Below are positions 42,954 to 63,909 of a DNA stretch of 64,000 nucleotides, piece after piece. Location of the stretch: assembly GCA_944384205.1 (NCBI GenBank), contig CALWSL010000012.1:1-64000 (forward strand), read 5' to 3'. Source of the DNA: an uncultured Acetatifactor sp. Its GTDB lineage: Bacteria > Bacillota > Clostridia > Lachnospirales > Lachnospiraceae. Every line of letters starts with the position of its first letter. The first letter of the stretch is position 1. Under the pieces are notes generated by a model. It worked only from the letters and a program-made list of their open reading frames with translations. It was not told the DNA's origin and made no database searches. Both the position numbers and the translations under genes were made by a program.

Positions 42954-42970
42954 TGTAATTACGATACTGG

Positions 42971-43549: not shown

Positions 43550-43561
43550 GAGGAAAATAAT

Positions 43562-45676: not shown

Positions 45677-45680
45677 TGAG

Positions 45681-47673: not shown

Positions 47674-47822
47674 CATAAATCCTTTCGCTGAGTGGACTAT
47701 AAGTAAAAAAGTAACTTATATTCATACTAACATAAGAAATAAGAGATTGCAAAAGATAAAATAATTGGTAGTTTTGTACAAAAAATATATATAAATTTGT
47801 GCAGAATTAAAATAAAAAAATG

Positions 47823-47850
47823 CTAAAGTAATCAATAAATCCTCCGATAT
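47823..47850 (+). promoter_or_regulatory. sigma-28 promoter of flagellin
   Basis: CTAAA (47,823-47,827), 16 bp and CCGATAT (47,844-47,850) are a perfect match to the SigD consensus, 190 bp before the flagellin ATG. Confidence 0.93.
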
Positions 47851-47857
47851 ACTTAAC

Positions 47858-48040
47858 AGGTAAAGCAAATAAAACAGAACAGTTTTATGCTTTTACAAAA
47901 AGGTAATCCGATGCAATCCGCACAATTGACAGGATTACCGTAACCGTTTACTGTAGGTGCGGCTTGTGCGAACCGGACAAACAGTAAACAAGTAAATTTG
48001 GCCGCAGGGAAGCGGCTTCATATTCAAGGAGGAATATATT
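47858..48040 (+). promoter_or_regulatory. structured flagellin 5' leader with two CsrA-type sites
   Basis: The leader can form GGTAATCC/GGATTACC (47,902-47,939), GTTTACTGT/ACAGTAAAC (47,946-47,989) and a short hairpin GCCGC-AGGGAA-GCGGC (48,001-48,016). The last shows AGGGA in its loop, a match to the CsrA core ANGGA. The ribosome site AAGGAGGA (48,026-48,033) holds a second match. Bacillus hag has the same two-site order, so CsrA repression relieved by FliW is expected. Confidence 0.72.
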
Positions 48041-48856: not shown

Positions 48857-48873
48857 TTCAGTAAAACAAATGA

Positions 48874-48903
48874 AGAGAGTCGGTTTTCCGGCTCTCTTTT
48901 TTG
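48874..48903 (+). terminator. flagellin terminator
   Basis: AGAGAGTCGG and CCGGCTCTCT pair around TTTT, with six T after the stem, 17 bp downstream of the stop. Confidence 0.92.
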
Positions 48904-48934
48904 TTTTGGCTGGTTGAAATAGGATAAATAAGAT

Positions 48935-50677
48935 ATGATTATATATTTTGAAACAGACGAAATCCAGCTACAGGATATTCCCAGGGTATTAAGTAAGATG
49001 GGATATTCTGTACAGAGTGCGGATTTGCAAATCAAGGCGCAGGAGTTTGACAGGGACGCTTGTGATAAGGTCATACAAATCTTAAAGCAGGAAGAAACAG
49101 AGTGCGCAATAACTTATAATTTTATAGAGACGATTTCCCAGGCATGTCTGGAGGCTGATGTGCCGTATATATCCTGGGTATATGACAATCCGCAGCAGGA
49201 GCTTTACAGCAGGTATGCACATTATCCATGTAATTATATATTTGTATTTGACAAGCTGCAGCAAAAGAGGCTGAAACAGACTGGTATCAGAAAGGTATAT
49301 CATATGCCTCTTGCAATTTATGGCGACAAAGTAGAAAGAGCGTTACAACAGAGAGAAAAATATGCCGGACAATACGAAGCGGAAGTTGCTTTTGTCGGGC
49401 AATTATATAGAATAGAGAGTCTGGAAAGAATTATTGAACAGGCAGGCTCAAAGGTACAGGCGGCTATGGAGGAAAGTATAGCGGGCTGTTTTTTGAATTG
49501 GAAGCGTGAAACCAGGATGCACGGAACAATGACGGATGCTTGCGTGCAGTATTTTAGTCAGGTGGATGGACGTAAGGTGCTGACACAATGCCCCTTTATA
49601 TCGGAACAGTTTTATTATGAGGCGGCGGTGCTTAGCAGAATACTGGCAAATAGAGAAAGAGTTGCTATTTTAAATGATTTGTCAAAGCAGTATGATGTCA
49701 GATTTTACACCTTTGACGAGGATGTAAAGGGTTTGCGTAAAGAGGTAAAGGTCTGTCCCGGTGCGAAATATGACATGGAGGTGTCACATGTCTATCAGCA
49801 AAGCAGGATTAATCTGAATATTACCCTGCATTGTATTGAAACCGGAATCTCGCAGCGGGTTTTTGATGTCATGGCGGCAGGCGGATTCCTTTTGAGTAAT
49901 TATCAGGAGGAACTGGAAGAATTATTTGTGCCGGGCGAAGATTTGGTACTCTATCATAATATGGAAGAATTGCACTATTATGTGGATTATTATCTCACCC
50001 ATGAGGAGGAACGGCAGCGGATTGCACGAAACGGACAAAGTAAGATTCTAAAATACCACGATTTTCAGAATCGCCTGAGAGCGGTTTTGGAAATTGTAGG
50101 CAAAGAGGAAGAAAAACGAACAGAAAGCTATTTGGATATTTTTCATCATGAAGAGGCAAAAATAGAAATGATGAAGGATTTGGCTTTGTGCCGTAATACA
50201 GAAATCAGATTGGGCATGGAGCGACTGTTTTATGGGATAGCGGATTTGGAGGATGCGGAGAACAGATATTTTGATGCCTGGGAATGCCTGCAGGGAATCA
50301 CAAAGCTGAGCGAAAAGGAACAATATACTTATTTATGTCAATTGATAAGCAAGAAAGAGATTCCGCGCTTATATATCATATGGCACATTTATATAAAAAA
50401 AGAAGACAGCGAGAGTATTCTGCTTAGATTGTGTGAGTGCATGAAGCGTCTTTCTATGGTGACTGCAATAGAGTTAGTGTCCTATGGACTGCTTATGACG
50501 CCCCAGTCCTCTGCGTTATTACTGAAAAAAGCGGAATGTCTCATGGAATTATCTATGTGGAAAGAGGCTTTGGAGACTTTAAGGCAAATGAAAGAGCCCC
50601 AGGGGGATATTTTGAAATTAATAAATACGCTGGAAAAGGCACTGGAAAGAAGGGGTGGAGATGGAAGCGAAATATAA
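48935..50677 (+). CDS. DUF3880/CgeB-type glycosyltransferase with helical C-terminus (copy 1)
   Basis: This 580-residue protein has an N-terminal GT-B half (DUF3880-like; VPYISWVYDNPQQEL near 70) and a second half with AEVAFVGQLYR near 150, RINLNITLHCIETGI near 290 and FDVMAAGGFLLSNYQEEL near 310. This pattern repeats in three further genes nearby. It differs from them by about 190 added residues of helical, TPR-like sequence at the C-terminus. CgeB-like proteins are retaining glycosyltransferases. Directly downstream of flagellin, it is a good candidate for adding sugars to flagellin. Confidence 0.82.
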   Translation: MIIYFETDEIQLQDIPRVLSKMGYSVQSADLQIKAQEFDRDACDKVIQILKQEETECAITYNFIETISQACLEADVPYISWVYDNPQQELYSRYAHYPCNYIFVFDKLQQKRLKQTGIRKVYHMPLAIYGDKVERALQQREKYAGQYEAEVAFVGQLYRIESLERIIEQAGSKVQAAMEESIAGCFLNWKRETRMHGTMTDACVQYFSQVDGRKVLTQCPFISEQFYYEAAVLSRILANRERVAILNDLSKQYDVRFYTFDEDVKGLRKEVKVCPGAKYDMEVSHVYQQSRINLNITLHCIETGISQRVFDVMAAGGFLLSNYQEELEELFVPGEDLVLYHNMEELHYYVDYYLTHEEERQRIARNGQSKILKYHDFQNRLRAVLEIVGKEEEKRTESYLDIFHHEEAKIEMMKDLALCRNTEIRLGMERLFYGIADLEDAENRYFDAWECLQGITKLSEKEQYTYLCQLISKKEIPRLYIIWHIYIKKEDSESILLRLCECMKRLSMVTAIELVSYGLLMTPQSSALLLKKAECLMELSMWKEALETLRQMKEPQGDILKLINTLEKALERRGGDGSEI

Positions 50678-51593
50678 TGTGCTTATCATGATAACAGAGC
50701 GGGATTTCCTGCGTCTGAAAAGCAATTACCATCGTCTTGTAAAAAATATGCCTGCGCAGAAATTGATATTTGTGGGAAGTGAAGAGGTTGGAAAAGAGGT
50801 AGAGCAGTTAAATTTAGGGGAACGGGTAGATTTTATCAATGAAAATGATATCCTTCCCTTTGCGGATGTGAATAAGGTGATACAGAAAGCCTTACAGATA
50901 GAAGAGGTGCCACGAGGCGTAACAGGCTGGTATTATCAGCAGTTTTTGAAAATGCAGTATAGCTTCCTGTGTGAGGATGATTATTATCTGGTATGGGATG
51001 GAGATACGATTCCCTGTAAGCCGTTCGATATGTTTTGGAAGGATGGTGTTACGCCGTTCTTTGATTTAAAGCGGGAATACCATGAAGAATATTTTGTGAC
51101 CCTGGGAAAACTTTTTCCGGGAATGCGTAAGTGTATTGAAGCCTCTTTTATCTCGGAGCATATGCTTATCAGACGGGATATTATGCAGAGCTTAATTGCG
51201 GATATTATGAAAAATGAGCAGCTATCGGGTGACAGCTTCTATGAGCGAATCATTCATTGTATTGATCCGTCCGGGCTGACCTCTAATAGCTTTAGTGAGT
51301 TTGAAACCTATGGAACCTATACCTGCTTTAAATACCTGAATTCTTACAGGCTGCGATACTGGCATTCCTTCCGGTATGCAGGCTATTTCTTCCAGCCCGA
51401 CGAAATCACAGACTCGGATTATGAGTGGCTGGGAAAGGATTTTGATGCGGTTTCCTTTGAACGGGGACATACCGTCAGAGAAGACCATAAGGATATCTTT
51501 ACCAAAAAAGAGTATCAGGAAAAGCTTTCCGCCAGACAGATACTTGAAATTGCCCAGGAGGAGTTCGAGGAGGGCTATCTGGAGATTTGGTAA
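50661..51593 (+). CDS. DUF6492-like glycosyltransferase
   Basis: This protein of 310 residues has GWYYQQFLKMQ near 90, YYLVWDGDTIPCKP near 105-118 (DxD acidic pair) and FEWHS-like YWHSFRYAGYFF near 235. The DGDT motif marks a GT-A fold. The start is ATG 50,661 behind AAGGGG; the gene overlaps the end of copy 1 by 17 bases, so the two are translated together. The sugar is unknown. A convergent gene follows 23 bp later without a terminator. Confidence 0.72.
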   Translation: MEAKYNVLIMITERDFLRLKSNYHRLVKNMPAQKLIFVGSEEVGKEVEQLNLGERVDFINENDILPFADVNKVIQKALQIEEVPRGVTGWYYQQFLKMQYSFLCEDDYYLVWDGDTIPCKPFDMFWKDGVTPFFDLKREYHEEYFVTLGKLFPGMRKCIEASFISEHMLIRRDIMQSLIADIMKNEQLSGDSFYERIIHCIDPSGLTSNSFSEFETYGTYTCFKYLNSYRLRYWHSFRYAGYFFQPDEITDSDYEWLGKDFDAVSFERGHTVREDHKDIFTKKEYQEKLSARQILEIAQEEFEEGYLEIW

Positions 51594-51615
51594 AGGAGGC
51601 TTCTCTAAGGCATAT

Positions 51616-52800
51616 TCAGTGAAACGAAGAAGAAATCACACGAATCATTTCTGCAGCCCGATGAGGATAAGTATGAAATTGCTTTACGGTTTCATAACCG
51701 TTTAGAGCGATTTGCTTTCTTTCCTCTTCGTGTTGCAGATAATAGGAACATTTGTCAATCAGCTCGTCCAGACTGCTATAAGCCTCTAAATCCCTTCCGA
51801 TTTCAAAATAATCTGTTAATTCCGCCTGATAGTTCGTCATCAGGAAACCGCCGCTTCCCATAATATCAAAGATACGAAGGGGGAGTCCGGTTTGAATGGG
51901 TTTAATGGTCATATTCAGATTGATTTTGCTCAAATGAAACACCTTGGGCATACCGGAAAGAGATTCGATGGCGTCGTGTGTGCGTACAAGGCGCAGAGGA
52001 GCGGTATCGCTGAAGGTGTACAAATCAACGCAGAAATGCTCAGCCAGTTTGTTCAGGGTTCGGATTCGTTCCGTTTCTGCGGTCTGGGCGCCGATATACT
52101 GGTGGGCAATGGTGTACTTATAAATATCTGTCAGTAATGGGAAAGGAGCTGCAAAATCGGGAATTACCTTTTTAAATTCAGAAATCAGGGTATCGGAGAT
52201 TGCCTCCTCTATAAAATTGTAACCGTATACCTGTAGGGAGGATTCCACGATGCCGTCAATACAGCCCTTTGCATAGGCGGACAAATCCGTAAGTTCTTTC
52301 AAAGGATTCTTTTCGGAGTATAAGGAGCCTACGAAAGAAATATCTGCGCAGTAGCCGGTAATATCCTCTGCCGTGATTAACTGGATAACAGAATCAAATC
52401 TGTCAACAGCGGAGGCAAGCGGCAGGTAAAAAACGCAGTCGGGATTGAAGGGATGAATACGGTTGTATTGTTCCTTATCAAACAGGAAAATGCGATTGGT
52501 AGGGTGCAGCAGCGGCTTTGTAAATAAGGACATCACAGGACTGTCCACGGTCCAGCATACATACAAAACATTATGAATATGGCATACTTCGGCTATGGCA
52601 GGAAAAAAGTTTATGGTAAACACAAAGAGAGGGGAATACTTACAAAGTAACTCATTCACCAGCTTTGTGCGTGCAGCAGGGGAAAATGCTTTGTCATATA
52701 TTTCTGTTTTTTCTTCGATAACAGTTATGCCGAGAGAGGAAAAGGCGGTTATCATATCGGGTTCGCAGATACTGCCATATCGATAAAATAGTATGTTCAT
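51616..52800 (-). CDS. DUF3880/CgeB-type glycosyltransferase (copy 2, inverted)
   Basis: This 394-residue protein has the same build as its neighbours (NILFYRYGS at the start, VCWTVDSPVMSLF near 75, ADISFVGSLYSE, INLNMTIKPIQTGLPLRIFD, GSGGFLMTNYQAEL). It is the only copy on the minus strand and faces the DUF6492-like gene. ATG 52,800 matches the start of the other copies, although its GAGG is 12 nt away; an ATG eight codons earlier is possible. The divergent promoter region upstream is shared with copy 3. Confidence 0.8.
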   Translation of the reverse strand: MNILFYRYGSICEPDMITAFSSLGITVIEEKTEIYDKAFSPAARTKLVNELLCKYSPLFVFTINFFPAIAEVCHIHNVLYVCWTVDSPVMSLFTKPLLHPTNRIFLFDKEQYNRIHPFNPDCVFYLPLASAVDRFDSVIQLITAEDITGYCADISFVGSLYSEKNPLKELTDLSAYAKGCIDGIVESSLQVYGYNFIEEAISDTLISEFKKVIPDFAAPFPLLTDIYKYTIAHQYIGAQTAETERIRTLNKLAEHFCVDLYTFSDTAPLRLVRTHDAIESLSGMPKVFHLSKINLNMTIKPIQTGLPLRIFDIMGSGGFLMTNYQAELTDYFEIGRDLEAYSSLDELIDKCSYYLQHEEERKQIALNGYETVKQFHTYPHRAAEMIRVISSSFH

Positions 52801-52817
52801 ATTGATTAAATACCTCA

Positions 52818-52846
52818 TTTCCATAGATGCTCAGATATGGTATAAT
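52818..52846 (+). promoter_or_regulatory. promoter of the phosphonate-glycan operon (extended -10)
   Basis: TTTCCA (52,818-52,823), a 17-bp spacer and TATAAT (52,841-52,846) with TGG before it form an extended -10 promoter of the housekeeping type. No sigma-28 box is seen here. Confidence 0.62.
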
Positions 52847-52910
52847 TGTAATATATTTTTGGGTACAAGGCAAGCTGCCTGTGAATGCGCAGCCTACTGG
52901 AGGAGAGAGC

Positions 52911-54065
52911 ATGAAGCTATTGATATATCACTGGGATTCTTATTTACAATACGACATCTTTCAGATATGCAGGGAAAAGAAGATAGATTTCCGCACCTTT
53001 GAATGGAAATTTAAGGATAAGAACCGTGATGAGGAATTTATCAAATGGTTTCAGGAAAATGTTGGCGAAGAATATGATGCGCTATTGAGCGTTAATTATT
53101 ATCCGTTATTATCGGAAGTGTGTATGAAGAAGGGGATGAAGTATATTGCATGGTGCTATGATACGCTCCTGAATGTGCAGAGAATAGAGGAAACATTAAA
53201 TAATCCGGTGAACTATGTGTTCCTTTTTGATAAAATCCAATGGTGGAAGTATGTCCAGCAGGGGTTTGAGACGGTATACCATCTGCCATTGGGAGTAAAC
53301 AGGACGCGCTATGAGAATCTGAAAATTTCTGATGCAGATTACGGCAAATATGCTGCTGAGGTTTCCTTTGTGGGCAAGCTGTATCAATCCCCGTTACAGG
53401 AAGTAATCTCGCCGTTGGATGATTATACAAGAGGATATCTGCAATCTCTTATTGATATTCAATTTCAGATATATGGAAATTTTATATTTGATAAGATGAT
53501 ATCAGAGGAATTGATTGACAATATAAATTCACAATATCTCAAAATAAATCCGGATACAACATTTCAACTCTGTAAGGCATCGTTGACCCAGGCAATGTCT
53601 GAAGAGGTTACCAGAAGAGAACGAATGATTCTGCTGAACCTGTGCGGGAAAAGATTTTGCACGAAATTTTATTCCTTTGACAAGGATCCCTTTGTAAAAA
53701 ATGTGATTGAATGTGGTCCGGTGGATTATGTACAGGAGATGCCTAAGGTATTTGCCTGTTCCAAAGTAAATTTGAACCCTTCCTTAAAGATTATACAGAC
53801 AGGTATCCCGTTAAGGGCATTTGATATTATGGGCGCGGGAGGATTTCTGTTATCCAACTATCAGGAGGAATTTCTTGATTATTATGAAAATGGAACGGAT
53901 ATGGTGATTTATGAAAGTATGGAGGATGCGGTAGAGAAGATACAGTTTTATCTGAAAGCAGAAGCTATCCGCTGTAAAATTGCAGAAAATGGAAGAAGAA
54001 AGACGTTAGAGGAGCACAGCTTGCAGGGATGTATGGCAAAAATCTTTGAAACAGCAGGAATTTAA
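52911..54065 (+). CDS. DUF3880/CgeB-type glycosyltransferase (copy 3)
   Basis: This 384-residue protein starts MKLLIYHWDSYLQYDIF at ATG 52,911 behind GGAGGAGAG. It has YIAWCYDTLLNVQRI near 75, AEVSFVGKLYQS near 140, VNLNPSLKIIQTGIPLRAFD near 290 and GAGGFLLSNYQEEF near 310. It is first in a run of eleven tightly spaced plus-strand genes ending beyond the window. Sugar and acceptor unknown; the shared operon suggests it builds the glycan that later receives the phosphonate. Confidence 0.82.
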   Translation: MKLLIYHWDSYLQYDIFQICREKKIDFRTFEWKFKDKNRDEEFIKWFQENVGEEYDALLSVNYYPLLSEVCMKKGMKYIAWCYDTLLNVQRIEETLNNPVNYVFLFDKIQWWKYVQQGFETVYHLPLGVNRTRYENLKISDADYGKYAAEVSFVGKLYQSPLQEVISPLDDYTRGYLQSLIDIQFQIYGNFIFDKMISEELIDNINSQYLKINPDTTFQLCKASLTQAMSEEVTRRERMILLNLCGKRFCTKFYSFDKDPFVKNVIECGPVDYVQEMPKVFACSKVNLNPSLKIIQTGIPLRAFDIMGAGGFLLSNYQEEFLDYYENGTDMVIYESMEDAVEKIQFYLKAEAIRCKIAENGRRKTLEEHSLQGCMAKIFETAGI

Positions 54066-54086
54066 GGTACAGGGCGGACAGGATAT

Positions 54087-55253
54087 ATGAAAATGAATTT
54101 TCAGAAAAAAATATTACTGATTATGACAAATATAACTACAAAGAATATGCGGGTATATTTGCAGCAGATAGGGTACGAAGTGACTGAGTGGATGGCGCCG
54201 TGTGAAGGCGATTCGGATAAATGTGGGGAGGCGCTGGCAGACGCGCTCGACGACAGCTATTACGGCGCGTTTTCCTATGACTATTTTCCCCAGTTTGCAC
54301 AGGCGTGTTATGAACGGAACAAGTATTATATTGCCTGGGTTGTGGACAACCCGCATTTTTCCTTATGGTCGAAGACAGTGAAATATCCGACGAACCGGAT
54401 ATTTGTTTTTGATAACAGTCAGTGTGGGCAGCTGGAGAAGCGGGGAGTGGAGAAGCTATTTTATCTGCCCCTTGGGGCTGACGTGGACGCCTTTTCCAAA
54501 GTAGATTATAGCAATCAGGATTTTACGGCGGATGTAGCCTTTGTAGGAAGCCTGTATAATGAAGATTCGAGAAATCTGTTTCAGCAAATTAAATTTCTTC
54601 CGCCATATACCAGGGGATATGTAGAGGGTTTGATTCGCTCGCAGCTCAATCTGTCTGAAAATATTCTTAACAAGGACATGATTTCAAATTCTGTCTGGCA
54701 GGATATAAAAAGATATGTGAATCTTTCGCAGGTCAATAGCTATGATTTTTCGTATGAAGAATGTTTTGTACATATTCTGCAGAAGGAAGTGACCAAAAGA
54801 GAGCGTTGTCAGGCGGTAACGTTATTAAATAAATTTTTTGACTTTAAATTATACAGCGCGTCTTCCACGGAATTTAATCCTGAATTGAAGAAAGCGGGAT
54901 ATGTTAATTACGAAACACAGATGCCTTTGGTGTTCCGTCAAAGCAGAGTGAATATCAATATCACACTGCGCTCCATTACCACAGGAATCCCGCTGAGGGC
55001 GCTGGATATTATGGCGTGCGGAGGGTTTCTGTTATCCAATTATCAGGTGGAACTGGCGGAATATTTTGAGGAAGATAAGGAATGTGTTTTCTACTATGAT
55101 TTGGAAGATATGGTAATGAAAACAGATTATTATCTGAAGCATGAAGAGGAAAGAAGAAAAATTGCGGAAGCCGGTTTGCGGAAGGTTCAAACCGAATTTT
55201 CTCTGAAAGGTCAGTTAAGTAAAATGAAGGCTATGCTGGAGGAGAATGAATGA
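54087..55253 (+). CDS. DUF3880/CgeB-type glycosyltransferase (copy 4)
   Basis: This 388-residue sister of copy 3 has YIAWVVDNPHFSLWS near 80, ADVAFVGSLYNE near 150, VNINITLRSITTGIPLRALD near 295 and ACGGFLLSNYQVEL near 318. The last four bases overlap the LicD fusion gene (ATGA). Divergence from copies 2 and 3 is high outside the motifs, so the copies probably have distinct donor or acceptor choice. Confidence 0.82.
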   Translation: MKMNFQKKILLIMTNITTKNMRVYLQQIGYEVTEWMAPCEGDSDKCGEALADALDDSYYGAFSYDYFPQFAQACYERNKYYIAWVVDNPHFSLWSKTVKYPTNRIFVFDNSQCGQLEKRGVEKLFYLPLGADVDAFSKVDYSNQDFTADVAFVGSLYNEDSRNLFQQIKFLPPYTRGYVEGLIRSQLNLSENILNKDMISNSVWQDIKRYVNLSQVNSYDFSYEECFVHILQKEVTKRERCQAVTLLNKFFDFKLYSASSTEFNPELKKAGYVNYETQMPLVFRQSRVNINITLRSITTGIPLRALDIMACGGFLLSNYQVELAEYFEEDKECVFYYDLEDMVMKTDYYLKHEEERRKIAEAGLRKVQTEFSLKGQLSKMKAMLEENE

Positions 55254-56617
55254 AACAGTTAATTTTTCCGGATGAGTATTTTAAGACAGAAGTCAGAGAC
55301 GGTTTTGCCGTAAATGAGTTGATGAAAAGAACCTGGGCGGCTCAGTTAGAGGTTTTGAATCAGATTATCGGGATATGTGATAAATATGGGTTGACTTATT
55401 ATGCCGATTGCGGAACGTTATTAGGGGCAGTGAGGCATAAAGGATATATTCCCTGGGATGATGACCTGGATATTGCAATGAAGAAAGAAGATTATATCAG
55501 ATTTCTGGAAGTGGCGAAGGAGGAATTTCCAAAGGATTACTGGATTGCCAATTGTTATACGACGGACGGCTATGAATATGTTACCACCAGAATATCAAAT
55601 ATCCATGCGACTGATTTTTCCGAAAAAACATTGTCAGAATATCATGGATGTCCTTTCCGGGTTGGAGTGGATATTTTTCCTTTGTATTATCTTTCTCGGG
55701 ACGCCCATGAGGCGGAAATGCAGAAAAATATCCTGCAAGATATTCTTGGGTTAATTCATTTGCTGGAGAATGAGCAAATGGAAGGTAATGTGCAGGTGGC
55801 GGAAGAACTGGTTAAACTGGAAAAGCTTACCGGTTATCGTTTTACGACAGACAGACCGTTAAAGACACAATTATGGATTCTGTTTGATCAGGTCAGCAGA
55901 TTGTTTGAAGAAGAGGAAAGTGATTCTTTAACCGTATTTACACGCCGGCTGAGAAATGGTTATTATGTAGAAAAAGAGCTGCTGGCAGAATGTATGCAGA
56001 TGCCTTTTGAAAATCTGATTGTGAATGTCCCGAAGGGATATGATGAAATTCTGAAAAGATTGTATGGCAATTACACGGTTCCCAGGCGAGTGTCGTTAGG
56101 GCATGATTATCCGTATTATAAAGGACAGTTGAAAAGACTGGGCGGATATATAGAAGAACAGGATTGTGCATGGAAAGCGGAGCAGAAGAAAGATTTGCCT
56201 GTGGAATGGCAGCGGAAGATAGGTTCCCGGAAAGTGGTACTGTACTATACCGGTGCAGATGCGCTTATGTGCCATAGCGAGTTTGCAGCGGATAAGCTGA
56301 AGGTTGTCTTTGAGAAATTCAAAAATGATTCAGATGTGATTTTATGGTGGTTTCCCTGTGTGCTTGATAATCCGAAGGCGCCTTTTATCCGGCAGATGTC
56401 GCCTCAATTAGTGAAGGATTACCATCAGATGATGGAGGAATATAAAAGGGAAGACTTCGGGATACTGGATCTTTCCGGCAACAGGCAGCGCGCGGTTTCT
56501 ATGGCAGATTCCTATTACGGAGATGAAAGCGAATTATCACAGATGTTTCGGAAAACCGGAAAATGCGTAACGATTCAGGATTATACAAAACTTGAGGAAA
56601 AGAAGGATTTAGTATGA
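55250..56617 (+). CDS. LicD-type phosphotransferase fused to a CDP-glycerol-transferase-like C-terminal domain
   Basis: This 455-residue protein has a LicD domain at residues 30-290 (YYADCGTLLGAVRHKGYIPW, then WDDDLDIAM at 69-77). LicD proteins move phosphocholine or similar phospho-groups from a CDP-carrier onto glycans. Residues about 325-450 (VVLYYTGADALMCHSE, ILWWFPCVLDN, MADSYYGDESELSQMF) match the C-terminal half of the transferase encoded at 61,859 (VFLLNTHLNSIINHSE, LLWRPHPLS, SNAYIGDWSSM). Such a fusion joins two phospho-ligand enzyme types. Overlaps both neighbours by 4 bp. Confidence 0.8.
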   Translation: MKQLIFPDEYFKTEVRDGFAVNELMKRTWAAQLEVLNQIIGICDKYGLTYYADCGTLLGAVRHKGYIPWDDDLDIAMKKEDYIRFLEVAKEEFPKDYWIANCYTTDGYEYVTTRISNIHATDFSEKTLSEYHGCPFRVGVDIFPLYYLSRDAHEAEMQKNILQDILGLIHLLENEQMEGNVQVAEELVKLEKLTGYRFTTDRPLKTQLWILFDQVSRLFEEEESDSLTVFTRRLRNGYYVEKELLAECMQMPFENLIVNVPKGYDEILKRLYGNYTVPRRVSLGHDYPYYKGQLKRLGGYIEEQDCAWKAEQKKDLPVEWQRKIGSRKVVLYYTGADALMCHSEFAADKLKVVFEKFKNDSDVILWWFPCVLDNPKAPFIRQMSPQLVKDYHQMMEEYKREDFGILDLSGNRQRAVSMADSYYGDESELSQMFRKTGKCVTIQDYTKLEEKKDLV

Positions 56618-57543
56618 CAGCAGAAAAAAAGATTATGCCGTCGAAGGATTTGCGAAAATTGCAACTGATTGAGCTGGAGATGCTGCTGGAAATAGACCGC
56701 ATCTGCAGGAAAAACGATATTGCGTATTCTATCTACGAGGGAACGGCATTGGGGGCAGTAAGGCACAAAGGCTTTATCCCCTGGGATGATGATGTGGACG
56801 TATGTATGTTCCGCAGAGAATTTGAGAAGTTTTTTGAGGTGTGTAAGACGCAGCTTAACACAGAGCGATTTTTTTTGCAGACGGATAAAACCGATCCCGG
56901 TTACCGATGGGGATACGCCAAGCTTAGAAGAAACGGAACGGAGTATTTGAGGGCGGGGCAGGAGGCGATTCAGTGTGTTTCGGGGGTGTCTGTTGATATT
57001 TTTATTCTGGATAATGTGCCGGACAGCGCCTTGGGAAGACTTGTCTATCATGTGATTCGCCGCGGCTGTATCAAGACACTGTGGTCCGTGATAGGTGTTA
57101 CCGCGGATCCCAATCCGCTCAAGCGGCTGTTATATCGCGGACTGCGGCATGTGAATAAACGGATTCCGTTAGGAATTATGGAGTGGTTGGCGCGGATGTC
57201 CGACAAAAGAGAGACAGAGAGGATGTACTGCATCTCTTTTTACCGGGTTGACGGGTTCGCGGCAAAGAGAAGCCTGTTTCAGGAAGGGGTCAGGTCAGAG
57301 TGGTTTCAGGAAAAAACAGAAATTGAATTTGAAGGATTTCCGTTATATATATGTAGGGATTATGACCAATATTTAAGTGAAAAGTACGGAGATTACTGGA
57401 AATATCCGCCGCAGTCCCAGCGGTACATACATCCCCCGAAGCGTTACGCGCTGGATGTGGATATTGACCTGCGGGGACGCAGCGTGGAAGAATATAGGAA
57501 TCGGGAATATATCTATCTGACAAAGGAAGAGAGGACGAAATAG
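56614..57543 (+). CDS. LicD family phosphotransferase
   Basis: This 309-residue LicD protein has SIYEGTALGAVRHKGFIPWD, with WDDDVDV at 57-63, and GVSVDIFILDNVP near 125. The C-terminal YLSEKYGDYWKYPP with a later HPPKR is typical of the family. It lies directly before the PEP mutase gene (1 bp), so its likely donor is a CMP-linked phosphonate rather than CDP-choline. No choline uptake or kinase genes are visible here. Confidence 0.85.
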   Translation: MTAEKKIMPSKDLRKLQLIELEMLLEIDRICRKNDIAYSIYEGTALGAVRHKGFIPWDDDVDVCMFRREFEKFFEVCKTQLNTERFFLQTDKTDPGYRWGYAKLRRNGTEYLRAGQEAIQCVSGVSVDIFILDNVPDSALGRLVYHVIRRGCIKTLWSVIGVTADPNPLKRLLYRGLRHVNKRIPLGIMEWLARMSDKRETERMYCISFYRVDGFAAKRSLFQEGVRSEWFQEKTEIEFEGFPLYICRDYDQYLSEKYGDYWKYPPQSQRYIHPPKRYALDVDIDLRGRSVEEYRNREYIYLTKEERTK

Positions 57544-57544
57544 A

Positions 57545-58825
57545 ATGGCGAAGACGGCATTTTTGAGTATTGGAGCTGAGTTTATTCATGGCGGTCATTT
57601 GGCGATTATTGAAAAAGCGGCAGCATTGGGGGAATTGACAGTCGGAGTGTTGTCTGATGAAGCGATTATGTCCTACAGAGGGTATCCAATCCTGACCTTT
57701 GAAGAACGGTGCAATGTCATCCGTCACATTAAGGGGGTTTCTAAGGTGGTAAAAAAGGATTCCCTTAGCTATGAAAAGGTAATCCGCGAGTTGAGACCGG
57801 ATTATGTGGTACACAGTGACCGCTGGCGTGGAAAGACAAAGGAAAAAATTGAAGCCCTGTTGCAGCAGTATGGCGGTGAGCTGGTGGAATTTCCCTATAC
57901 GGATAAGAGCGAATATGAGGTGTTTGACAGGCAGGCAGAGCAGCTTCGTTATATGCCGGAGGTGCGGAGAGGAAAGCTGCGGAGGGCATTGCAACTGACA
58001 GACAGACCGCTTCGGGTATTGGAAGCACATAACGGAATCACCGGTTTAATTGTGGAGAAGGCGCATGTGGAAAAAGAAGGTGAAATCCGACAATTCGATG
58101 CCATGTGGATATCCAGCTTGTGTGATTCTACCGCTAAGGGAAAGCCGGATATCGAACTGGTGGACATGACCTCCCGTGAAAATACGATTAATGAGATTAT
58201 GGAGGTTACGACCAAGCCAATTATATTGGATGGTGATACCGGCGGAATTACGGAGCATTTTGTGTACAGGGTAAAAACATTGGAACGAATGGGTGTATCT
58301 GCAATTATCATTGAGGATAAGGTGGGACTGAAAAAAAATTCCCTGTTTGGAACGGAGGTACTGCAGCAACAGGATTCTATCGAGCATTTCAGCAATAAAA
58401 TCCGGGCTGGGAAAGCAGCGCAGACAACAAGGGATTTTATGATTATTGCGAGAATTGAGAGCCTGATTTTGGAACAGGGGATGGACGATGCGCTGACCAG
58501 GGCATTTGCTTATGTGGAAGCCGGCGCTGACGGGATTATGATTCACTCTAAGAAAAAAGAACCGGATGAGGTTTTGGAATTTTGCAGAAAATTCAGGGAG
58601 AAGTGTGAGAGGATACCCCTTATAGTGGTGCCGACCACATACAATCATGTTACAGAGACGGAGCTTGGAAAGTACGGAGTGAATATTATCATTTATGCAA
58701 ATCATTTAATCCGAAGCGCGTTTCCGGCAATGAATAATGTGGCGCATATGATTTTGGAAAATGAGAGGTCGCTGGAAGCAAGCGAAAATTGTATGCCGAT
58801 TAAGGAAATTTTAACGCTGATTTAA
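57545..58825 (+). CDS. pepM: phosphoenolpyruvate mutase with N-terminal cytidylyltransferase-like domain
   Basis: This is a protein of 426 residues. Residues 1-130 form a nucleotidyltransferase fold (SIGAEFIHGGHLAIIEKAA; HGGH at 15-18). Residues 145-426 form the PEP mutase barrel: WISSLCDSTAKG near 188, LDGDTGG at 228-234 and the signature EDKVGLKKNS at 257-266. PepM moves phosphate within PEP to give phosphonopyruvate, the first C-P bond step. PepM with an N-terminal nucleotidyltransferase is a known arrangement. The decarboxylase gene follows at 16 bp, which pulls the unfavourable equilibrium forward. Confidence 0.95.
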   Translation: MAKTAFLSIGAEFIHGGHLAIIEKAAALGELTVGVLSDEAIMSYRGYPILTFEERCNVIRHIKGVSKVVKKDSLSYEKVIRELRPDYVVHSDRWRGKTKEKIEALLQQYGGELVEFPYTDKSEYEVFDRQAEQLRYMPEVRRGKLRRALQLTDRPLRVLEAHNGITGLIVEKAHVEKEGEIRQFDAMWISSLCDSTAKGKPDIELVDMTSRENTINEIMEVTTKPIILDGDTGGITEHFVYRVKTLERMGVSAIIIEDKVGLKKNSLFGTEVLQQQDSIEHFSNKIRAGKAAQTTRDFMIIARIESLILEQGMDDALTRAFAYVEAGADGIMIHSKKKEPDEVLEFCRKFREKCERIPLIVVPTTYNHVTETELGKYGVNIIIYANHLIRSAFPAMNNVAHMILENERSLEASENCMPIKEILTLI

Positions 58826-58841
58826 GTTCGGAGGACAGTAC

Positions 58842-59972
58842 ATGAAGGCACAGGAATTTGTCGATACCTTAGAAGGGATTTTGGAAATAGAATTTTATGC
58901 GGGAGTCCCGGATTCACTGCTCAGTCCTTTGACAGGAGAGATTATGAACCGATACGGTATCTCAGAGAAGCATATTGTGGCAGCGAATGAAGGAAATGCA
59001 GCCGGACTTGCGGCAGGTTATCATCTGGCGACAGGAAAGATACCTTGTGTTTATATGCAGAACAGCGGAGAAGGAAATATGTTGAATCCCTATGCCTCTC
59101 TGCTGGCGCCGGAGGTATATAAGATACCTTGTGTCTTTGTAATTGGATGGCGCGGAGAGCCGGGAACCAAGGATGAACCCCAGCATGTATTTCAAGGGGA
59201 GATTACGCAGACTTTAATGGAGCTTCTGACCATTCAGACCGTGGTGATTACGGAAGATATGAAAGCGGAAGATTTACAGGAGAGTTGTCAGGTATTTAAA
59301 CGGCTGCTGTCAGAGGGAAAATGTGTTGCCTTTCTTGTAGAAAAGGGAGCTTTGACAAGCGATGTCAAGGTGAAATACGCGAATTCCTATACGATGAAGA
59401 GAGAGGATGCGCTGCGGGAGATTGTAAAGGGAACGGGAGAGGATATCCTTGTGTCAACCACAGGGAAGGCATCCAGAGAATTATTTGAAATCAGAGAGCA
59501 GAATGGGCAGTCTCACCAATATGATTTCCTGACGGTTGGCTCCATGGGACACAGCTCTTCTATCGCGCTGAGTATCGCCCTGGCTAAGAAGGAGCAAAAG
59601 GTATGGTGCATAGACGGGGACGGTGCAATGCTGATGCACATGGGCGCAATGGCGGTCATAGGAGCCAATGCCCCCCGCAATTTTGTGCATATTCTGATTA
59701 ATAACGAATCTCATGAAACAGTGGGAGGAATGCCTACGGTTGCCGGCAGTATCGATTTTGCAAAGGTTGCGGAGGGCTGCGGATATCAAAGGATTTTAAA
59801 GGCATCCACACCGGAGGAGGTTGCGCGGGTCGTAGAAGAGGCAAAAGGAGCGGACGAATTAACGTTTATCGAAATCAAAGCGGCTCTGGGGGCGCGGAGC
59901 GATTTAGGACGTCCTACCACGACTGCGGAGGAGAATAAAAAGAGTTTTATGCAGTATGTAAAGGAGATGTAA
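58842..59972 (+). CDS. ppd: phosphonopyruvate decarboxylase
   Basis: This 376-residue thiamine diphosphate enzyme has the active-site Glu in AANEGNAAGLAAGY (E50), QNSGEGNMLNP near 73-83 and the cofactor motif IDGDGAMLMHMGAM (257-270) ending in NNESHETVGG. It turns phosphonopyruvate into phosphonoacetaldehyde and CO2. The single-chain length is the usual one for this family (sulfopyruvate decarboxylases are split). It sits between pepM and the nucleotidyltransferase with short spacers. Confidence 0.94.
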   Translation: MKAQEFVDTLEGILEIEFYAGVPDSLLSPLTGEIMNRYGISEKHIVAANEGNAAGLAAGYHLATGKIPCVYMQNSGEGNMLNPYASLLAPEVYKIPCVFVIGWRGEPGTKDEPQHVFQGEITQTLMELLTIQTVVITEDMKAEDLQESCQVFKRLLSEGKCVAFLVEKGALTSDVKVKYANSYTMKREDALREIVKGTGEDILVSTTGKASRELFEIREQNGQSHQYDFLTVGSMGHSSSIALSIALAKKEQKVWCIDGDGAMLMHMGAMAVIGANAPRNFVHILINNESHETVGGMPTVAGSIDFAKVAEGCGYQRILKASTPEEVARVVEEAKGADELTFIEIKAALGARSDLGRPTTTAEENKKSFMQYVKEM

Positions 59973-59974
59973 GG

Positions 59975-60679
59975 GTGAAGGCTTTGATACTGAATTCCGG
60001 CTTAGGAAAGAGAATGGGAAAATATACGGCGGAGGCTCCCAAATGTATGGTTCCCCTGTTATGTGGCGATACCATTGTGGCAAGGCAGTTGCGCCTCATT
60101 CAGAAAATGGGAATTCATGAGGTGGTCATGACAACGGGACCTTACGCGGAATTGCTGGAAAATTATATAAAATCATTGGGATTGTCTCTTGCGATACAAT
60201 ATGTAAATAATCCGAGATATCAGGAGACGAATTATATTTACTCCATTTATCTTGCCGGAGAGTATCTTCATTCAGAAATGATTTTACTGCACGGCGATCT
60301 GGTGTTTGAGGAGGAAGTGCTTCGACGGGTGACAGAGGCAAAGCAGGATTGTATGGCGGTTAGTTCGACAGTGGAATTGCCGGAGAAAGATTTTAAAGCG
60401 GTGATAAAAAACGGAAGGATTCAGGCGGTGGGGATTGAGTTTATGCAGGACTGTGTTGCAGCACAACCGCTTTATCACTTTTCACAAGAGGCGTGGGAAA
60501 TCTGGCTGAATCAAATCATAAGCTTTTGTGAAGCGGGAGAAGTCACCTGTTATGCAGAGAATGCCTTGAATCAAGTGACGGATCAGATGAAGCTGTATCC
60601 ATATGATTTTAAGGAAATGCTGTGTCAGGAAGTGGACAAAGAGGAGGATTTGCTTGCAGTGAGAGCGCTTTTAAAGTAG
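59975..60679 (+). CDS. LicC-like CTP-dependent nucleotidyltransferase
   Basis: This 234-residue protein starts at GTG, 2 bp after ppd. It has the nucleotidyltransferase N-terminus (LILNSGLGKRMGKYT, then APKCMVPL), PRYQETNYIYSIYLA near 80 and HGDLVFEE at 106, where Asp binds metal. LicC and the CTP:2-aminoethylphosphonate cytidylyltransferase PntC belong to this group. It probably activates the phosphonate as a CMP ester for the LicD proteins. ATP or other NTP use cannot be ruled out. Confidence 0.85.
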   Translation: MKALILNSGLGKRMGKYTAEAPKCMVPLLCGDTIVARQLRLIQKMGIHEVVMTTGPYAELLENYIKSLGLSLAIQYVNNPRYQETNYIYSIYLAGEYLHSEMILLHGDLVFEEEVLRRVTEAKQDCMAVSSTVELPEKDFKAVIKNGRIQAVGIEFMQDCVAAQPLYHFSQEAWEIWLNQIISFCEAGEVTCYAENALNQVTDQMKLYPYDFKEMLCQEVDKEEDLLAVRALLK

Positions 60680-60712
60680 ACGGCAAAAAAGTGCAAAGCT
60701 GAGGAATGTGGA

Positions 60713-61831
60713 ATGAAGTATAATGATTTTTGCAGGACGGATATAGAATTTGTAAATGTAGAGCAGATGAAAGAAGCCTGCCTTCATTTTGATTATAAAA
60801 AACTGGTATTGGTCATGTCAAAGCGGGCAGGTGTCAGGTACGAACTGGAGCGCTTTGTGAGAGACCTCGAAAGCCGATATGAATTACTGTGGCTTGGGGA
60901 ATCCGTTAGTTATCCAACGCAGAAAACCCTGAAGGAAGGACTGGATGCGCTAAAGGGGTTTGAGCCGGAGGCAATCCTTGCCATAGGCGGCGGCAGCGCC
61001 ATTGATTACGCCAAAGGAATGAAAGCTTTTTACCACAGTACAGAGTACCAGACGGTGGAGACAATTACAGAGTTATTACAGAAAAAGGAGATTCGGAGGA
61101 ATCCCATAGATATTATTGCAGTGCCGACCACTGCGGGAACAGGTGCGGAAGTGACAAAATGGGCTACTATCTGGGATAGTGAAAGTAAGTGTAAATATTC
61201 CATCGATAGGGAGGAACTAAAGCCGGATAAGGCATTTATCGTACCGGAATTTACCGCAAGGGCAGGCGGAGAACTGACGATAACGACTGGTTTGGATTCC
61301 TTGGCACATGCGATGGAAAGCTATTGGTCGAAAAAGACTTCCCCGTTGGTGCGGCAGTTAGCAGTCAGATCGATAGGCATTACAATAGAATATCTGGATC
61401 AGATTATAAAAGAACCGGAAAATATAAGCTTAAGAGAAAAGCAATGTCTGGCGTCGGTGCTTTCAGGACTGGCATTTTCCATGACAAGGACCACAGCGTG
61501 TCATTCTATTTCCTATCCGCTTACCATGCAATATCAGATTCCCCACGGAACGGCTGTCGCTATGACATTGGCACAGGTGGCGGAGAAGAACAGCGGAAGC
61601 TTTCCGGAGGCGGAGGATTTATTTGCCCTTTTTGCAGGCTGCGGCGGCATACGAAATTATTTAGAGCAGGTGTGCGGTGAAACGGTATCACTGCGGCTGC
61701 GGGACTATGGAATTGCGAGGGATAAGCTTCCCGTGATAGCGCAAAGCGCATTTACGCTGGGAAGAATGGACAATAATCCTGTGGAGTTTAACAGGCAGGA
61801 TGTTGTTGAAATATTAAAGCAAACATTTTGA
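60713..61831 (+). CDS. iron-containing alcohol dehydrogenase, phosphonoacetaldehyde reductase-like
   Basis: This 372-residue group III alcohol dehydrogenase has AIGGGSAIDYAKG at 90-102 (NAD(P) site), PTTAGTGAEVT at 138-148 and metal ligands D195, H199 (GLDSLAHAMESYW), H264 (CHSISYPL) and H278 (IPHG). Related reductases (PhpC, FomC, DhpG) make 2-hydroxyethylphosphonate from phosphonoacetaldehyde. Its place right after pepM-ppd-nucleotidyltransferase supports that role. No 2-aminoethylphosphonate transaminase is seen in the operon. Confidence 0.87.
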   Translation: MKYNDFCRTDIEFVNVEQMKEACLHFDYKKLVLVMSKRAGVRYELERFVRDLESRYELLWLGESVSYPTQKTLKEGLDALKGFEPEAILAIGGGSAIDYAKGMKAFYHSTEYQTVETITELLQKKEIRRNPIDIIAVPTTAGTGAEVTKWATIWDSESKCKYSIDREELKPDKAFIVPEFTARAGGELTITTGLDSLAHAMESYWSKKTSPLVRQLAVRSIGITIEYLDQIIKEPENISLREKQCLASVLSGLAFSMTRTTACHSISYPLTMQYQIPHGTAVAMTLAQVAEKNSGSFPEAEDLFALFAGCGGIRNYLEQVCGETVSLRLRDYGIARDKLPVIAQSAFTLGRMDNNPVEFNRQDVVEILKQTF

Positions 61832-61858
61832 TGAAGAGTCATTGGAAGGGAGGACGAT

Positions 61859-63301
61859 ATGAGTAAAAAATGGAAGCAGAATATCAAGGAATTATTAGGA
61901 ACAGTGAAGGACGGATTTGCAGTTCTGGAAACAATGGATTCGGCGGCACTCATTGAGTTCTTGCAGACGATGCAGGAAGCAGTTATACATATCGGTAACT
62001 CAATTGAGAAGCAAATTGCAGATTGTGAACAGATCATAGAGACATTGACGGAATTGGCAGAAAGGATTTATGAGTTAAGTTTTGATGGCAATCATTTGAA
62101 ATATAAAAATCTGGAAAAAGCCAAAACCCTGTGTGAAAAGGCAGAAAAAGAAATGGATATAGGAATCCCGGATGTCTATGAGATTCTCTTTCTGCCTTAT
62201 AAGGTGTCTATGTGGGATGCCTTGGAAACTATATATGAGGCAGCGATATTGGAAAAGGATTGTCATGTAACGGTTATGCCGATACCGTATTATCATATGA
62301 CGGAAGATAGGAGTAATGTGGAACTGGAGTACGAAGGAAATCAATTTCCGCGTAATATTGAGATTACTGATTATAGAAAATATGATATTCCGGAAAAATT
62401 TCCGGACGTGATATTTATTCACAATCCTTATGACGATCACAATCTTGTTACGCAGGTACCGCGTTGTTATTTTAGTTCAGAACTGATGAAATATACAGAT
62501 CATTTGGTATACATCCCTTATAAAGTATGCGCTGAAAGAGTGAGAGATAGTTTTTGTGTTATGTCGGGAGTGAGAAATGCATGGAGAGTGTTTGTACAGT
62601 CGGAGACGGTACGTGAGGTATATATAAAATATAATCCTCAGGAGAAAATCGTTGTAACCGGGTCACCGAAGATTGACAAGGTAATTCGGAATGCGCAATA
62701 TCCGCCCCAAATGCCTGAGGAATGGAAATCAGCGCTTGATGGCAAAATTGTATTCCTGCTGAATACTCATTTGAATAGTATTATTAATCATTCAGAAGAA
62801 ATGATTAAGGAAGTAGAGGGACTAATTGCGTTTTTTGAGAAAAGAGAGGATATAGCCCTGTTATGGAGACCACATCCTCTTAGCGTAGAAACAGCAAAGA
62901 CAATGAATATTAAGACGGTACGGGCGTATCAGCAGCTTGTGGAAAGATTCAAAGAACTGAAAAATGGTGTATTCGACCAAACGTCAGATCCCCATCAGGC
63001 AATTGCACTTTCCAATGCGTATATTGGGGACTGGAGTTCCATGGTGATGATGTTTGGTGTGACAGGGAAACCGATATTTATCAGAACGACTGCGTTAGAC
63101 TGGAATATGGCGGGAAAAAGATTAAAATCGATAGATTATGAGGACACAGTCAAGCTTGAGACATTTATCGATATGATTGTAACGGGTAAGGATACCGGCA
63201 GAGAGGACAGAAAGGAAGAGTTTGCAGGTCTTTTTGCGAGAACAGACGGTAATTCGGGAAAGCAAATTTGGGAGTATGTGAAGAATGCTTTGGAAGAGTG
63301 A
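61859..63301 (+). CDS. CDP-glycerol glycerophosphotransferase-like (TagB/TagF-type) transferase
   Basis: This 480-residue protein has a long coiled N-terminus (residues 1-100), then a GT-B-like region: VIFIHNPYDDHN near 182, VTGSPKIDK near 265, LLWRPHPLS near 335 and SNAYIGDWSSMVMMFG near 385. The last two motifs are those of poly(glycerol phosphate) transferases. It could transfer the CMP-activated phosphonate or glycerol phosphate to the glycan. GGGAGG precedes the ATG. The C-terminal half is related to the tail of the LicD fusion at 55,250. Confidence 0.8.
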   Translation: MSKKWKQNIKELLGTVKDGFAVLETMDSAALIEFLQTMQEAVIHIGNSIEKQIADCEQIIETLTELAERIYELSFDGNHLKYKNLEKAKTLCEKAEKEMDIGIPDVYEILFLPYKVSMWDALETIYEAAILEKDCHVTVMPIPYYHMTEDRSNVELEYEGNQFPRNIEITDYRKYDIPEKFPDVIFIHNPYDDHNLVTQVPRCYFSSELMKYTDHLVYIPYKVCAERVRDSFCVMSGVRNAWRVFVQSETVREVYIKYNPQEKIVVTGSPKIDKVIRNAQYPPQMPEEWKSALDGKIVFLLNTHLNSIINHSEEMIKEVEGLIAFFEKREDIALLWRPHPLSVETAKTMNIKTVRAYQQLVERFKELKNGVFDQTSDPHQAIALSNAYIGDWSSMVMMFGVTGKPIFIRTTALDWNMAGKRLKSIDYEDTVKLETFIDMIVTGKDTGREDRKEEFAGLFARTDGNSGKQIWEYVKNALEE

Positions 63302-63315
63302 GGAGAGGACACTGT

Positions 63316-63909
63316 ATGATAGAACCATATAAAAAATGCCTGAAAAAGATACCGGCTTCAATCGAAGAGCTGCAAAGGCTTACAGACGAGCTGTACGAGC
63401 AGATAGGGGAGGAGACCAGACAGGCAAGGGCAGAAAAAGGCAGAGTTGTGAAAGTCATTGATATGGTATTAAAACTGAAGGGTACAGAAATGTTTTCACA
63501 GTTGAAGAGAATCGTATCCGGTGATCTTTTTCAAAGTATTCAGAGGTATGATGACGAGTTTCTAACCTTCGAGAGAGTGCTGTCCATTTATGAGGAAGAG
63601 AAAAGTGCAGGGAAAACTTCCCTTTTAGACTGGGTGAGCTCTGTAGCAGAGCTGCAGGAAATCTATGCGAAGACCTTTTTTGGAATGCGCAGATTAGAGC
63701 TGGATATGCCGAAGGCAAGTAAAGAGGAATTCCTTCAACTGATTGTACAGTATGATATGTCTGCAATCTATCTGACAAATATGTGGAATTGGCATCCTTT
63801 TTATAACCCTGGTTATTTGGTGCAGCAGTTGATGATATTGCTGAGTGAAAATGGGAAGGAAGCTTTGTGTGAAGAGATATATGGGCGAATAGAGGAAATG
63901 GATAAGTAG
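63316..63909 (+). CDS. hypothetical helical protein in phosphonate operon
   Basis: This 197-residue protein has no signal peptide or membrane span. It is highly charged and helical (CLKKIPASIEELQRLTDELY, QARAEKGRVVKV) and contains NMWNWHPFYNPGYL near 165. AGGAGAGG precedes ATG 63,316, 14 bp after the transferase. I do not recognise the family. Its place suggests a partner or regulator of the transferases. Confidence 0.6.
   Translation: MIEPYKKCLKKIPASIEELQRLTDELYEQIGEETRQARAEKGRVVKVIDMVLKLKGTEMFSQLKRIVSGDLFQSIQRYDDEFLTFERVLSIYEEEKSAGKTSLLDWVSSVAELQEIYAKTFFGMRRLELDMPKASKEEFLQLIVQYDMSAIYLTNMWNWHPFYNPGYLVQQLMILLSENGKEALCEEIYGRIEEMDK

Follow-up and report, generated by a model that had tools for sequence, protein, structure and literature searches.

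What does a bacterium make with a phosphonate pathway whose genes lie among glycosyltransferase genes a few kilobases from its flagellin gene, and where does the product go? The question is raised by the window analyzed here, the first 64 kb (64,000 nucleotides) of the 110.6-kb contig CALWSL010000012.1, from the 3.15-Mb genome of an uncultured Acetatifactor sp. (assembly GCA_944384205.1). In this window, genes for phosphoenolpyruvate (PEP) mutase (PepM), phosphonopyruvate decarboxylase (Ppd), a nucleotidyltransferase (NTPt) and an iron-containing alcohol dehydrogenase (Fe-ADH) occupy positions 57545-61831, with PepM 8.7 kb downstream of the flagellin gene fliC (48041-48856, plus strand; Pfam Flagellin_N and Flagellin_C). 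The reading that explains the whole best, and that we favor with moderate confidence, is that of a glycan island associated with flagellin in which a phosphonate-tailoring pathway is embedded. We consider it very likely that the chemistry at this locus proceeds through cytidine monophosphate (CMP)-activated 2-hydroxyethylphosphonate (CMP-HEP) and a LicD transferase, and flagellin is the probable target in this organism.

The first two enzymes are readily identified. PepM (57545-58825, plus strand) scores 412.9 bits against the equivalog model TIGR02320, which has a cut-off of 319.55 bits, and Ppd (58842-59972, plus strand) scores 451.8 bits against TIGR03297, with a cut-off of 312.5 bits. Chance resemblance or misannotation of these two proteins was ruled out by these scores. 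For alignment, the window proteins were combined with those of 80 related loci, the best 80 of 84, which were picked by similarity to the whole PepM fusion protein (see below) and many of which lie on short contigs. The EDKxxxKxNS motif is retained in 81 of 81 aligned PepMs; in Ppd, E50 is retained in 71 of 72 rows, the remaining row having a gap, and GDG in all 72. A profile search found one match to the PepM family in the whole genome, and the nearest relatives among those 80 loci are in the Roseburia metagenome genomes L014 and L017, at 88-89% identity.

The four genes belong to a co-directional run of 11 genes that ends at position 65250 of the contig, with intergenic gaps of -4 to 33 bp. 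Its order is two DUF3880 glycosyltransferases, LicD1, LicD2, PepM, Ppd, NTPt, Fe-ADH, a protein with a CDP-glycerol-type glycerophosphotransferase (Glyphos_transf) domain, a protein of unknown function and a family 2 (GT2-type) glycosyltransferase. The original prediction had named the four pathway enzymes, and their reading frames, the TIGR02320 and TIGR03297 scores and the intact motifs bear it out. It had also put them in one operon with LicD and CDP-glycerol-type transferases, next to flagellin; the 11-gene run and the Pfam LicD and Glyphos_transf matches agree with the first part, but "next to" overstates the position of a flagellin gene that is 8.7 kb away and apparently a separate unit.

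In the pathway that we propose, PepM would convert PEP to phosphonopyruvate, Ppd would decarboxylate this to phosphonoacetaldehyde, and the Fe-ADH would reduce the aldehyde to HEP. Activation to CMP-HEP may fall to a Fom1-like cytidylyltransferase domain that PepM carries, to the separate LicC/PntC-like nucleotidyltransferase, or to both, after which LicD2 would move the HEP phosphonyl group from CMP-HEP onto a sugar. This acceptor sugar would be assembled by the neighboring DUF3880 and family 2 glycosyltransferases, and the glycan would most likely be attached to flagellin before export. The observations concern the identity of the genes, the conservation of active-site residues, the order of the genes, their fusions and their co-location; what the Fe-ADH, the two cytidylyltransferases and LicD2 act on, like the target, we infer. 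The same route as far as LicD transfer had been predicted originally, and it gains support as an interpretation from the Fom1-like domain, the pattern of Fe-ADH and transaminase occurrence, the protein fusions and the LicD2 clade, each of which is described below.

The case for flagellin comes from comparative genomics. In L145, L030, L016 and L017, fliC and the phosphonate pathway are joined by co-directional runs. In L145 (genome G199), the genes encode, with gaps of at most 75 bp, FliC, a small protein, a Maf-like protein, PseB, PseC, a second Maf-like protein, PseF, PseI, an ATP-grasp protein, LicD, an NTPt-PepM fusion, Fe-ADH and Ppd; PseB, PseC, PseF and PseI all score above their cut-offs. 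The co-directional order in L030 (Herbinix) is fliC, Maf-like, cytidylyltransferase, NeuB-family, two unassigned genes, NTPt, PepM, Ppd and Fe-ADH, and here the NeuB- and PseF-family proteins score below the cut-offs that are passed in L145. Thus L145 has both marks of a Maf/nonulosonate-type flagellin glycosylation island, Maf-like and NeuB/PseI genes, and L030 has a Maf-like protein and a NeuB-family protein. L016 reads fliC, two GT2 proteins with TPR repeats (GT2-TPR), Glyphos_transf, LicD2, PepM, NTPt and Fe-ADH, with Ppd not on the stretch, and L017 reads LicD2, PepM, Ppd, NTPt, Fe-ADH, Glyphos_transf, GT2 and fliC. In genome G458 (L154 and L015), the order runs from flgL to fliS and fliC, then through DUF3880 and LicD genes to LicD2 and finally PepM. 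Proteins of about 620 residues near fliC were Maf-like (PF01973, a family that we take to include the flagellin Maf proteins) in 5 of 5 cases scanned, one of them, L157, with PepM 36 kb away.

In the window itself, the glycosyltransferases beside fliC, as in a flagellin glycosylation island, are four DUF3880/Glyco_trans_1_2 proteins (48935-50677, plus strand; 51616-52824, minus strand; 52827-54065 and 54087-55253, plus strand) and one GT2-TPR protein (46600-47676, minus strand; Pfam PF00535 and TPR). All four DUF3880 matches of this genome, and two of its three LicD matches, lie between flagellin and PepM. The DUF3880 and GT2-TPR proteins may act on flagellin.

The linkage was also examined by counting. 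PepM scores above the cut-off in 45 of 397 Lachnospiraceae genomes; together with nine more, 54 genomes were searched for flagellin, and flagellin matches below 80 bits, which are FlgL-like, were dropped from the distance counts. Among the matches listed, 40 of the 54 had a flagellin. PepM is within 15 kb of it in 8 of the 40, against 1.13 expected at random, and within 20 kb in 9, against 1.49, where the expectations use rounded genome sizes. The gene rmlB served as a surface-sugar control: PepM and rmlB are near flagellin in 4/40 and 0/38 genomes at 10 kb (p = 0.064), 8/40 and 0/38 at 15 kb (p = 0.0033), 9/40 and 0/38 at 20 kb (p = 0.0015), and 9/40 and 2/38 at 25 kb (p = 0.029). In a second set, drawn from 50 of the 80 related loci, 27 relatives have a flagellin-family match, and the distance from PepM to flagellin is at most 15 kb in 7 of these and at most 20 kb in 9. 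This set includes related Oscillospiraceae and shares one genome with the first (G468 is G373 by its coordinates); some of its matches are FlgL-like or below the cut-off, and its random expectation is crude. A flagellin-family match is found in 32 of 45 PepM-positive and 181 of 352 other Lachnospiraceae (p = 0.017 with kinship ignored), a modest association.

Several observations weigh against flagellin as the target. In the window, fliC is apparently a separate transcription unit from the phosphonate run, since it has a sigma28-like site upstream (47824-47849, plus strand; a pattern match to what we take to be the sigma28 consensus) and a terminator-like hairpin downstream (48872-48899, plus strand; a 12-pair stem with a T tail), and since one opposite-strand gene lies between it and the 11-gene run. 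Genome searches with Maf-like and NeuB models found no match in the window's own genome, and by these two marks the locus is not an island of the Maf/nonulosonate type. The control gene rmlB itself comes within 25 kb of flagellin in 2 of 38 genomes. In 31 of the 40 flagellated PepM genomes there is no flagellin within 25 kb of PepM, with the two farther apart on the same contig in 6 and on different contigs in 25; contig breaks may hide some linkage in the latter. Mere nearness to flagellin was rejected as proof of the target on account of these 31 genomes. No flagellin match at all was found, among the matches listed, in 14 of the 54 PepM genomes, nor in 23 of the 50 relatives. Lastly, the 19 loci with PepM within 25 kb of flagellin (9 in the first set and 10 in the second) are of mixed type: Fe-ADH is recognizable in 7, a transaminase for 2-aminoethylphosphonate (AEP) in 2 and neither in 10, four of these ten being of a radical S-adenosylmethionine (radical-SAM) type and two having an aspartate-aminotransferase-like gene. 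Because of the unlinked and flagellin-less genomes and the mixed gene types, we take the phosphonate genes to be a general surface-tailoring module that comes in several chemical versions and sits in flagellin islands in some lineages. This module has probably been recruited to flagella.

The strongest competing explanation is that HEP is made as predicted and is put on a capsule, a teichoic-acid-like polymer or a glycolipid, its nearness to flagellin reflecting the clustering of surface-glycan genes. The flagellin-less genomes fit this explanation, as do the 31 unlinked ones, the apparently separate transcription of fliC and the PepM clusters on contigs labeled Methanobrevibacter. LicD and Glyphos_transf proteins, both present at the locus, are typical of wall polymers. 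However, PepM is near flagellin more often (8/40 at 15 kb, 9/40 at 25 kb) than the surface-sugar control rmlB (0/38 and 2/38), and in L145 and L030 fliC, Maf-like and nonulosonate genes run straight on into the pathway. Furthermore, no flippase, polymerase or exporter was recognized by Pfam among the scanned proteins from 46600 to 63909 and five later frames, three of which proteins had no match. We regard a target other than flagellin as unlikely, though it deserves to be kept in view. The flagellar target that was originally predicted is, in sum, made probable rather than proven by the linkage and by the continuous runs of the relatives. As to the Methanobrevibacter-labeled contigs, the pathway is found on five of them (L024, L029, L034, L035 and L084), in an archaeal surface context, and Fe-ADH is present on four.

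If flagellin is the target, the next question is which phosphonate it receives, and the Fe-ADH (60713-61831, plus strand) bears on this. It is a two-domain iron dehydrogenase by Pfam, and of the NCBIfam models the phosphonate-linked TIGR03405 fits it best. The score of 220.4 bits is far below the cut-off of 423.7 bits and leaves it outside that equivalog, so the assignment of its substrate rests on context, namely that related loci mostly have it in place of the transaminase and that some fuse it to NTPt and LicD. On this basis it is a predicted phosphonoacetaldehyde reductase. Among the 80 loci, 53 have an Fe-ADH no more than 6 kb from PepM, 6 have a protein closely related to an AEP-transaminase-like one, and none has both (chance probability 0.001); L015 and L090 have an Fe-ADH just beyond the 6-kb limit. 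With two remote transaminase homologues included, the overlap is 2 of 8 (probability of 2 or fewer, 0.016). In 16 further loci, the transaminase was found in 7 and an Fe-ADH by PepM in 5, while G441 has a weak Fe-ADH relative 11 kb away. The NTPt and Fe-ADH are a single protein in 25 of the 80 loci, and Pfam detected longer fusions: NTPt-FeADH-LicD-GT2 in L032 and L057, NTPt-FeADH-LicD-LicD in L083 and NTPt-FeADH-GT2 in L092. These fusions join reduction, activation, transfer and sugar assembly in one pathway, whose substrates are predicted. The NTPt-FeADH-LicD-glycosyltransferase fusions offer a sequence marker by which likely HEP-type phosphonoglycan clusters may be separated from AEP-type clusters.

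The separation has exceptions that speak against it. In both L066 and L091, a remote transaminase homologue (25-27%) lies 3-4 kb away from PepM and Fe-ADH is present as well; in G027, a transaminase gene stands beside PepM with a weak (26%) Fe-ADH relative nearby; and the Fe-ADHs of many loci are only 25-33% like that of the window. The possibility that the product is AEP, with the Fe-ADH acting on some other substrate, would also agree with the score below the TIGR03405 cut-off. The phosphonate that the available excerpts of PMC6697681 discuss on the surfaces of bacteria is AEP, as is the one that those of PMC8861647 report on flagellin, and there are AEP-type loci near flagellin, namely G195 and G217, the latter with transaminase, fliC and Maf-, PseB- and PseI-like genes. 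AEP as the product of the window is nonetheless highly unlikely, since the scan of proteins from 46600 to 63909 and of five frames beyond turned up no aminotransferase. In addition, Fe-ADH largely substitutes for the transaminase in related loci, and its fusion to NTPt parallels the AEPT fusion of Treponema denticola (PDB 6pd1).

Three side observations concern these enzymes. At one position, a Tyr is present in 53 of 56 aligned Fe-ADHs, where other iron dehydrogenases have His, and one expected metal-ligand His is a Gln in 29 of the 56. L016 (9986-13133) has PepM and NTPt with an Fe-ADH that is divergent (28%), but no Ppd within the 21-kb stretch, and direct reduction of phosphonopyruvate is a possible route there. 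In the AEP-type genome G217 (L146/L147), some 19 kb separates fliC from transaminase, PepM, NTPt-like and Ppd genes, and this interval holds Maf-like, PseB-like (74%) and PseI-like (62%) genes; this makes G217 a candidate counterpart to the AEP-modified flagellin of Clostridioides difficile.

Returning to HEP as the predicted product, its activation could involve either of two cytidylyltransferases. The first is the N-terminal part of the PepM protein (residues ~5-120, followed by PEP mutase at ~147-426), which had gone unmentioned in the original prediction. In the PDB it matches 5x3d best (E = 1.9e-29), an entry that is given as a 160-aa PEP phosphomutase, with 50 of 116 residues identical. 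We take 5x3d to be the Fom1 domain, for which confirmation in print was sought and none found. The HxGH motif is kept in all 79 of the 81 rows that reach this domain, and it is this motif and the similarity to the solved domain that mark it as Fom1-type. The Fom1 domain makes CMP-HEP from HEP according to the excerpts of PMC6697681, and the domain in the window may likewise use HEP. The fusion is, however, not diagnostic of HEP, because the transaminase-type loci L052 and L059 carry the same PepM-fused domain, and its presence across the 80 loci is partly a matter of selection, since these were picked by similarity to the whole fusion.

The second is the separate nucleotidyltransferase (59975-60679, plus strand; Pfam NTP_transf_3), a predicted CTP:HEP cytidylyltransferase, which among other PDB entries matches LicC (1jyk) and the fusion 6pd1 from T. 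denticola. It reads GLGKR-8-PK, with Lys in place of Thr/Ser in the PntC/LicC consensus GXG(T/S)RX4-8PK given in the excerpted text of PMC6697681. That two cytidylyltransferases are kept at one locus sits awkwardly with the proposed pathway; those same excerpts also tell of AEP clusters in which one nucleotidyltransferase is fused to PepM and another lies nearby. The Fom1-like fusion could also be taken to mean that the cluster makes a small diffusible, antibiotic-like phosphonate, such a fusion and an HEP intermediate being known from fosfomycin biosynthesis, but LicD and glycosyltransferases surround the pathway and are fused to its enzymes in relatives, and none of the later fosfomycin enzymes turned up among those proteins of the run that were scanned, which makes this idea scarcely tenable.

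The transfer step falls to the LicD proteins, LicD1 (55250-56617, plus strand) and LicD2 (56614-57543, plus strand), which score 125.4 and 134.9 bits against a PF04991 cut-off of 22.6 and clearly belong to that family. In a tree of 56 rows, from which matches below 60 bits or shorter than 180 aa were dropped and for which the LicD of L145 was too divergent, LicD2 falls in a clade of 12 rows with support of 99/95. Ten of the twelve adjoin PepM; the row from L148 shares a run with PepM and is 5.6 kb downstream of it, and L154 duplicates an adjacent row and is truncated at the end of its stretch. LicD1 is in another clade with rows mostly from flagellin islands, the fused LicDs are elsewhere again, and 3 of the 13 PepM-adjacent LicDs are outside the LicD2 clade. 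A further point counts against reading too much into the tree: its rows come from loci that carry pepM or lie beside it on a contig, and the tree is thus evidence that LicD2 sits next to PepM, not that it is absent elsewhere. LicD2, as the predicted CMP-HEP phosphonotransferase, had one match in PDB searches (E = 0.023), which was not informative, and the Glyphos_transf protein had none. At its C terminus, LicD1 is extended by about 150 residues that by eye resemble the end of the Glyphos_transf protein. In the flagellin island of L154, a 618-aa fusion of NTP_transf_3 with a class I/II aminotransferase (8748-10604) lies between the LicD1 and DUF3880 genes and may supply another CDP-linked amino-alcohol group for LicD1.

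The remaining features of the window are given here with their coordinates. Upstream of the locus, on the plus strand at 38728-46067, are the flagellar genes FlgK, FlgL, FliW, CsrA, FlaG, FliD and FliS; FliD was assigned by Pfam, the FlgL frame was matched by Flagellin_N, and the other names come from the translations. A DUF6492 protein (50655-51593, plus strand; Pfam PF20102) follows the first DUF3880 gene. At the head of the 11-gene run is a sigma70-like promoter (52818-52846, plus strand) with a 10/12 match and a TG extension; it is weak, as 46 sites of such quality were found against 38.7 (standard deviation 5.9) in shuffled sequences. The DUF3880 gene at 52827-54065 is the longest frame, with a later ATG at 52911 as a likely start. 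The Glyphos_transf protein (61859-63301, plus strand) scores 38 bits, and the protein of unknown function (63316-63909, plus strand; ATG at 63316), scanned from 63307 in frame, had no Pfam or NCBIfam match. Outside the window, a fusion of radical-SAM and cytidylyltransferase-like domains (Pfam) directly follows PepM in L028 (11367-12812), on an Oscillospiraceae-type contig. By similarity, L018, L019 and L021 have the same layout; these three are 5-7 kb, and L028 about 20 kb, from large flagellins. This fusion perhaps represents a radical tailoring step on a CMP-phosphonate.

Taken more widely, the loci suggest that flagellins of gut Clostridia, Roseburia-like and others, are phosphonylated by pathways encoded at flagellin loci, with HEP where the genes resemble those of the window, AEP in genomes such as G217, and perhaps other phosphonates in Oscillospiraceae of the radical-SAM type. 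The groups would be placed by LicD proteins on pseudaminic-type or other sugars, making a recurrent class with de novo C-P biosynthesis and a possible source of the flagellar phosphonate of C. difficile. We see the arguments for and against this generalization as evenly balanced. If it is true, motility, recognition by antibodies or host receptors and phage adsorption could depend on a phosphatase-resistant C-P group.

Several known systems resemble that of the window. The Fom1 protein of fosfomycin biosynthesis, in the excerpts of PMC6697681, has the same cytidylyltransferase-PepM domain order and a route through HEP; it serves a small-molecule antibiotic, whereas the fusion in the window lies amid LicD and glycosyltransferases. 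PntC (Rice 2019, PMC6697681; PDB 6pd1) is, in the same excerpts, a LicC-like nucleotidyltransferase near PepM and with LicD, and its fusion to AEPT parallels the NTPt-FeADH fusion of the window's relatives, but PntC prefers AEP whereas the nucleotidyltransferase of the window is predicted to use HEP; the string "flagell" occurs nowhere in PMC6697681. AEP occurs on a capsule of Bacteroides fragilis, and the available portion of PMC8931226 presents a hypothesis of marine phosphonoglycoproteins, with links to O-glycosylation genes; these are likewise phosphonates on surface sugars, unlike the present case in that they concern a capsule or an unspecified glycoprotein and not flagellin loci. The pseudaminic acid/Maf flagellin islands find their likeness in L145, with its phosphonate genes continuous with fliC, Maf-like, PseB, PseC, PseF and PseI; the window's genome, without a Maf-like or NeuB match, has DUF3880 glycosyltransferases instead.

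The closest precedent contradicts the original prediction in one respect, its belief that phosphonate on flagella had not been described. According to the available excerpts of PMC8861647, the type A glycan of C. difficile FliC was reported in 2022 to carry 2-AEP, a case of a phosphonate borne by a sugar linked to flagellin, with the modification genes clustered (cd0240-cd0244). Among the open-license papers listed in searches, none dealt with flagellin that carries HEP or with pepM genes placed at a flagellin locus, and the AEP of C. difficile was the single flagellar phosphonate found there. In the excerpts of PMC8861647, C. difficile came out pepM-negative; with flagellin loci of gut commensals that carry the pathway, the origin and role of such a group become directly testable. 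Phosphonate on flagellin itself is thus already known. What the window and its relatives add to the C. difficile case is a dedicated pepM pathway at flagellin loci and a reductive-looking branch that is predicted to yield HEP rather than AEP.

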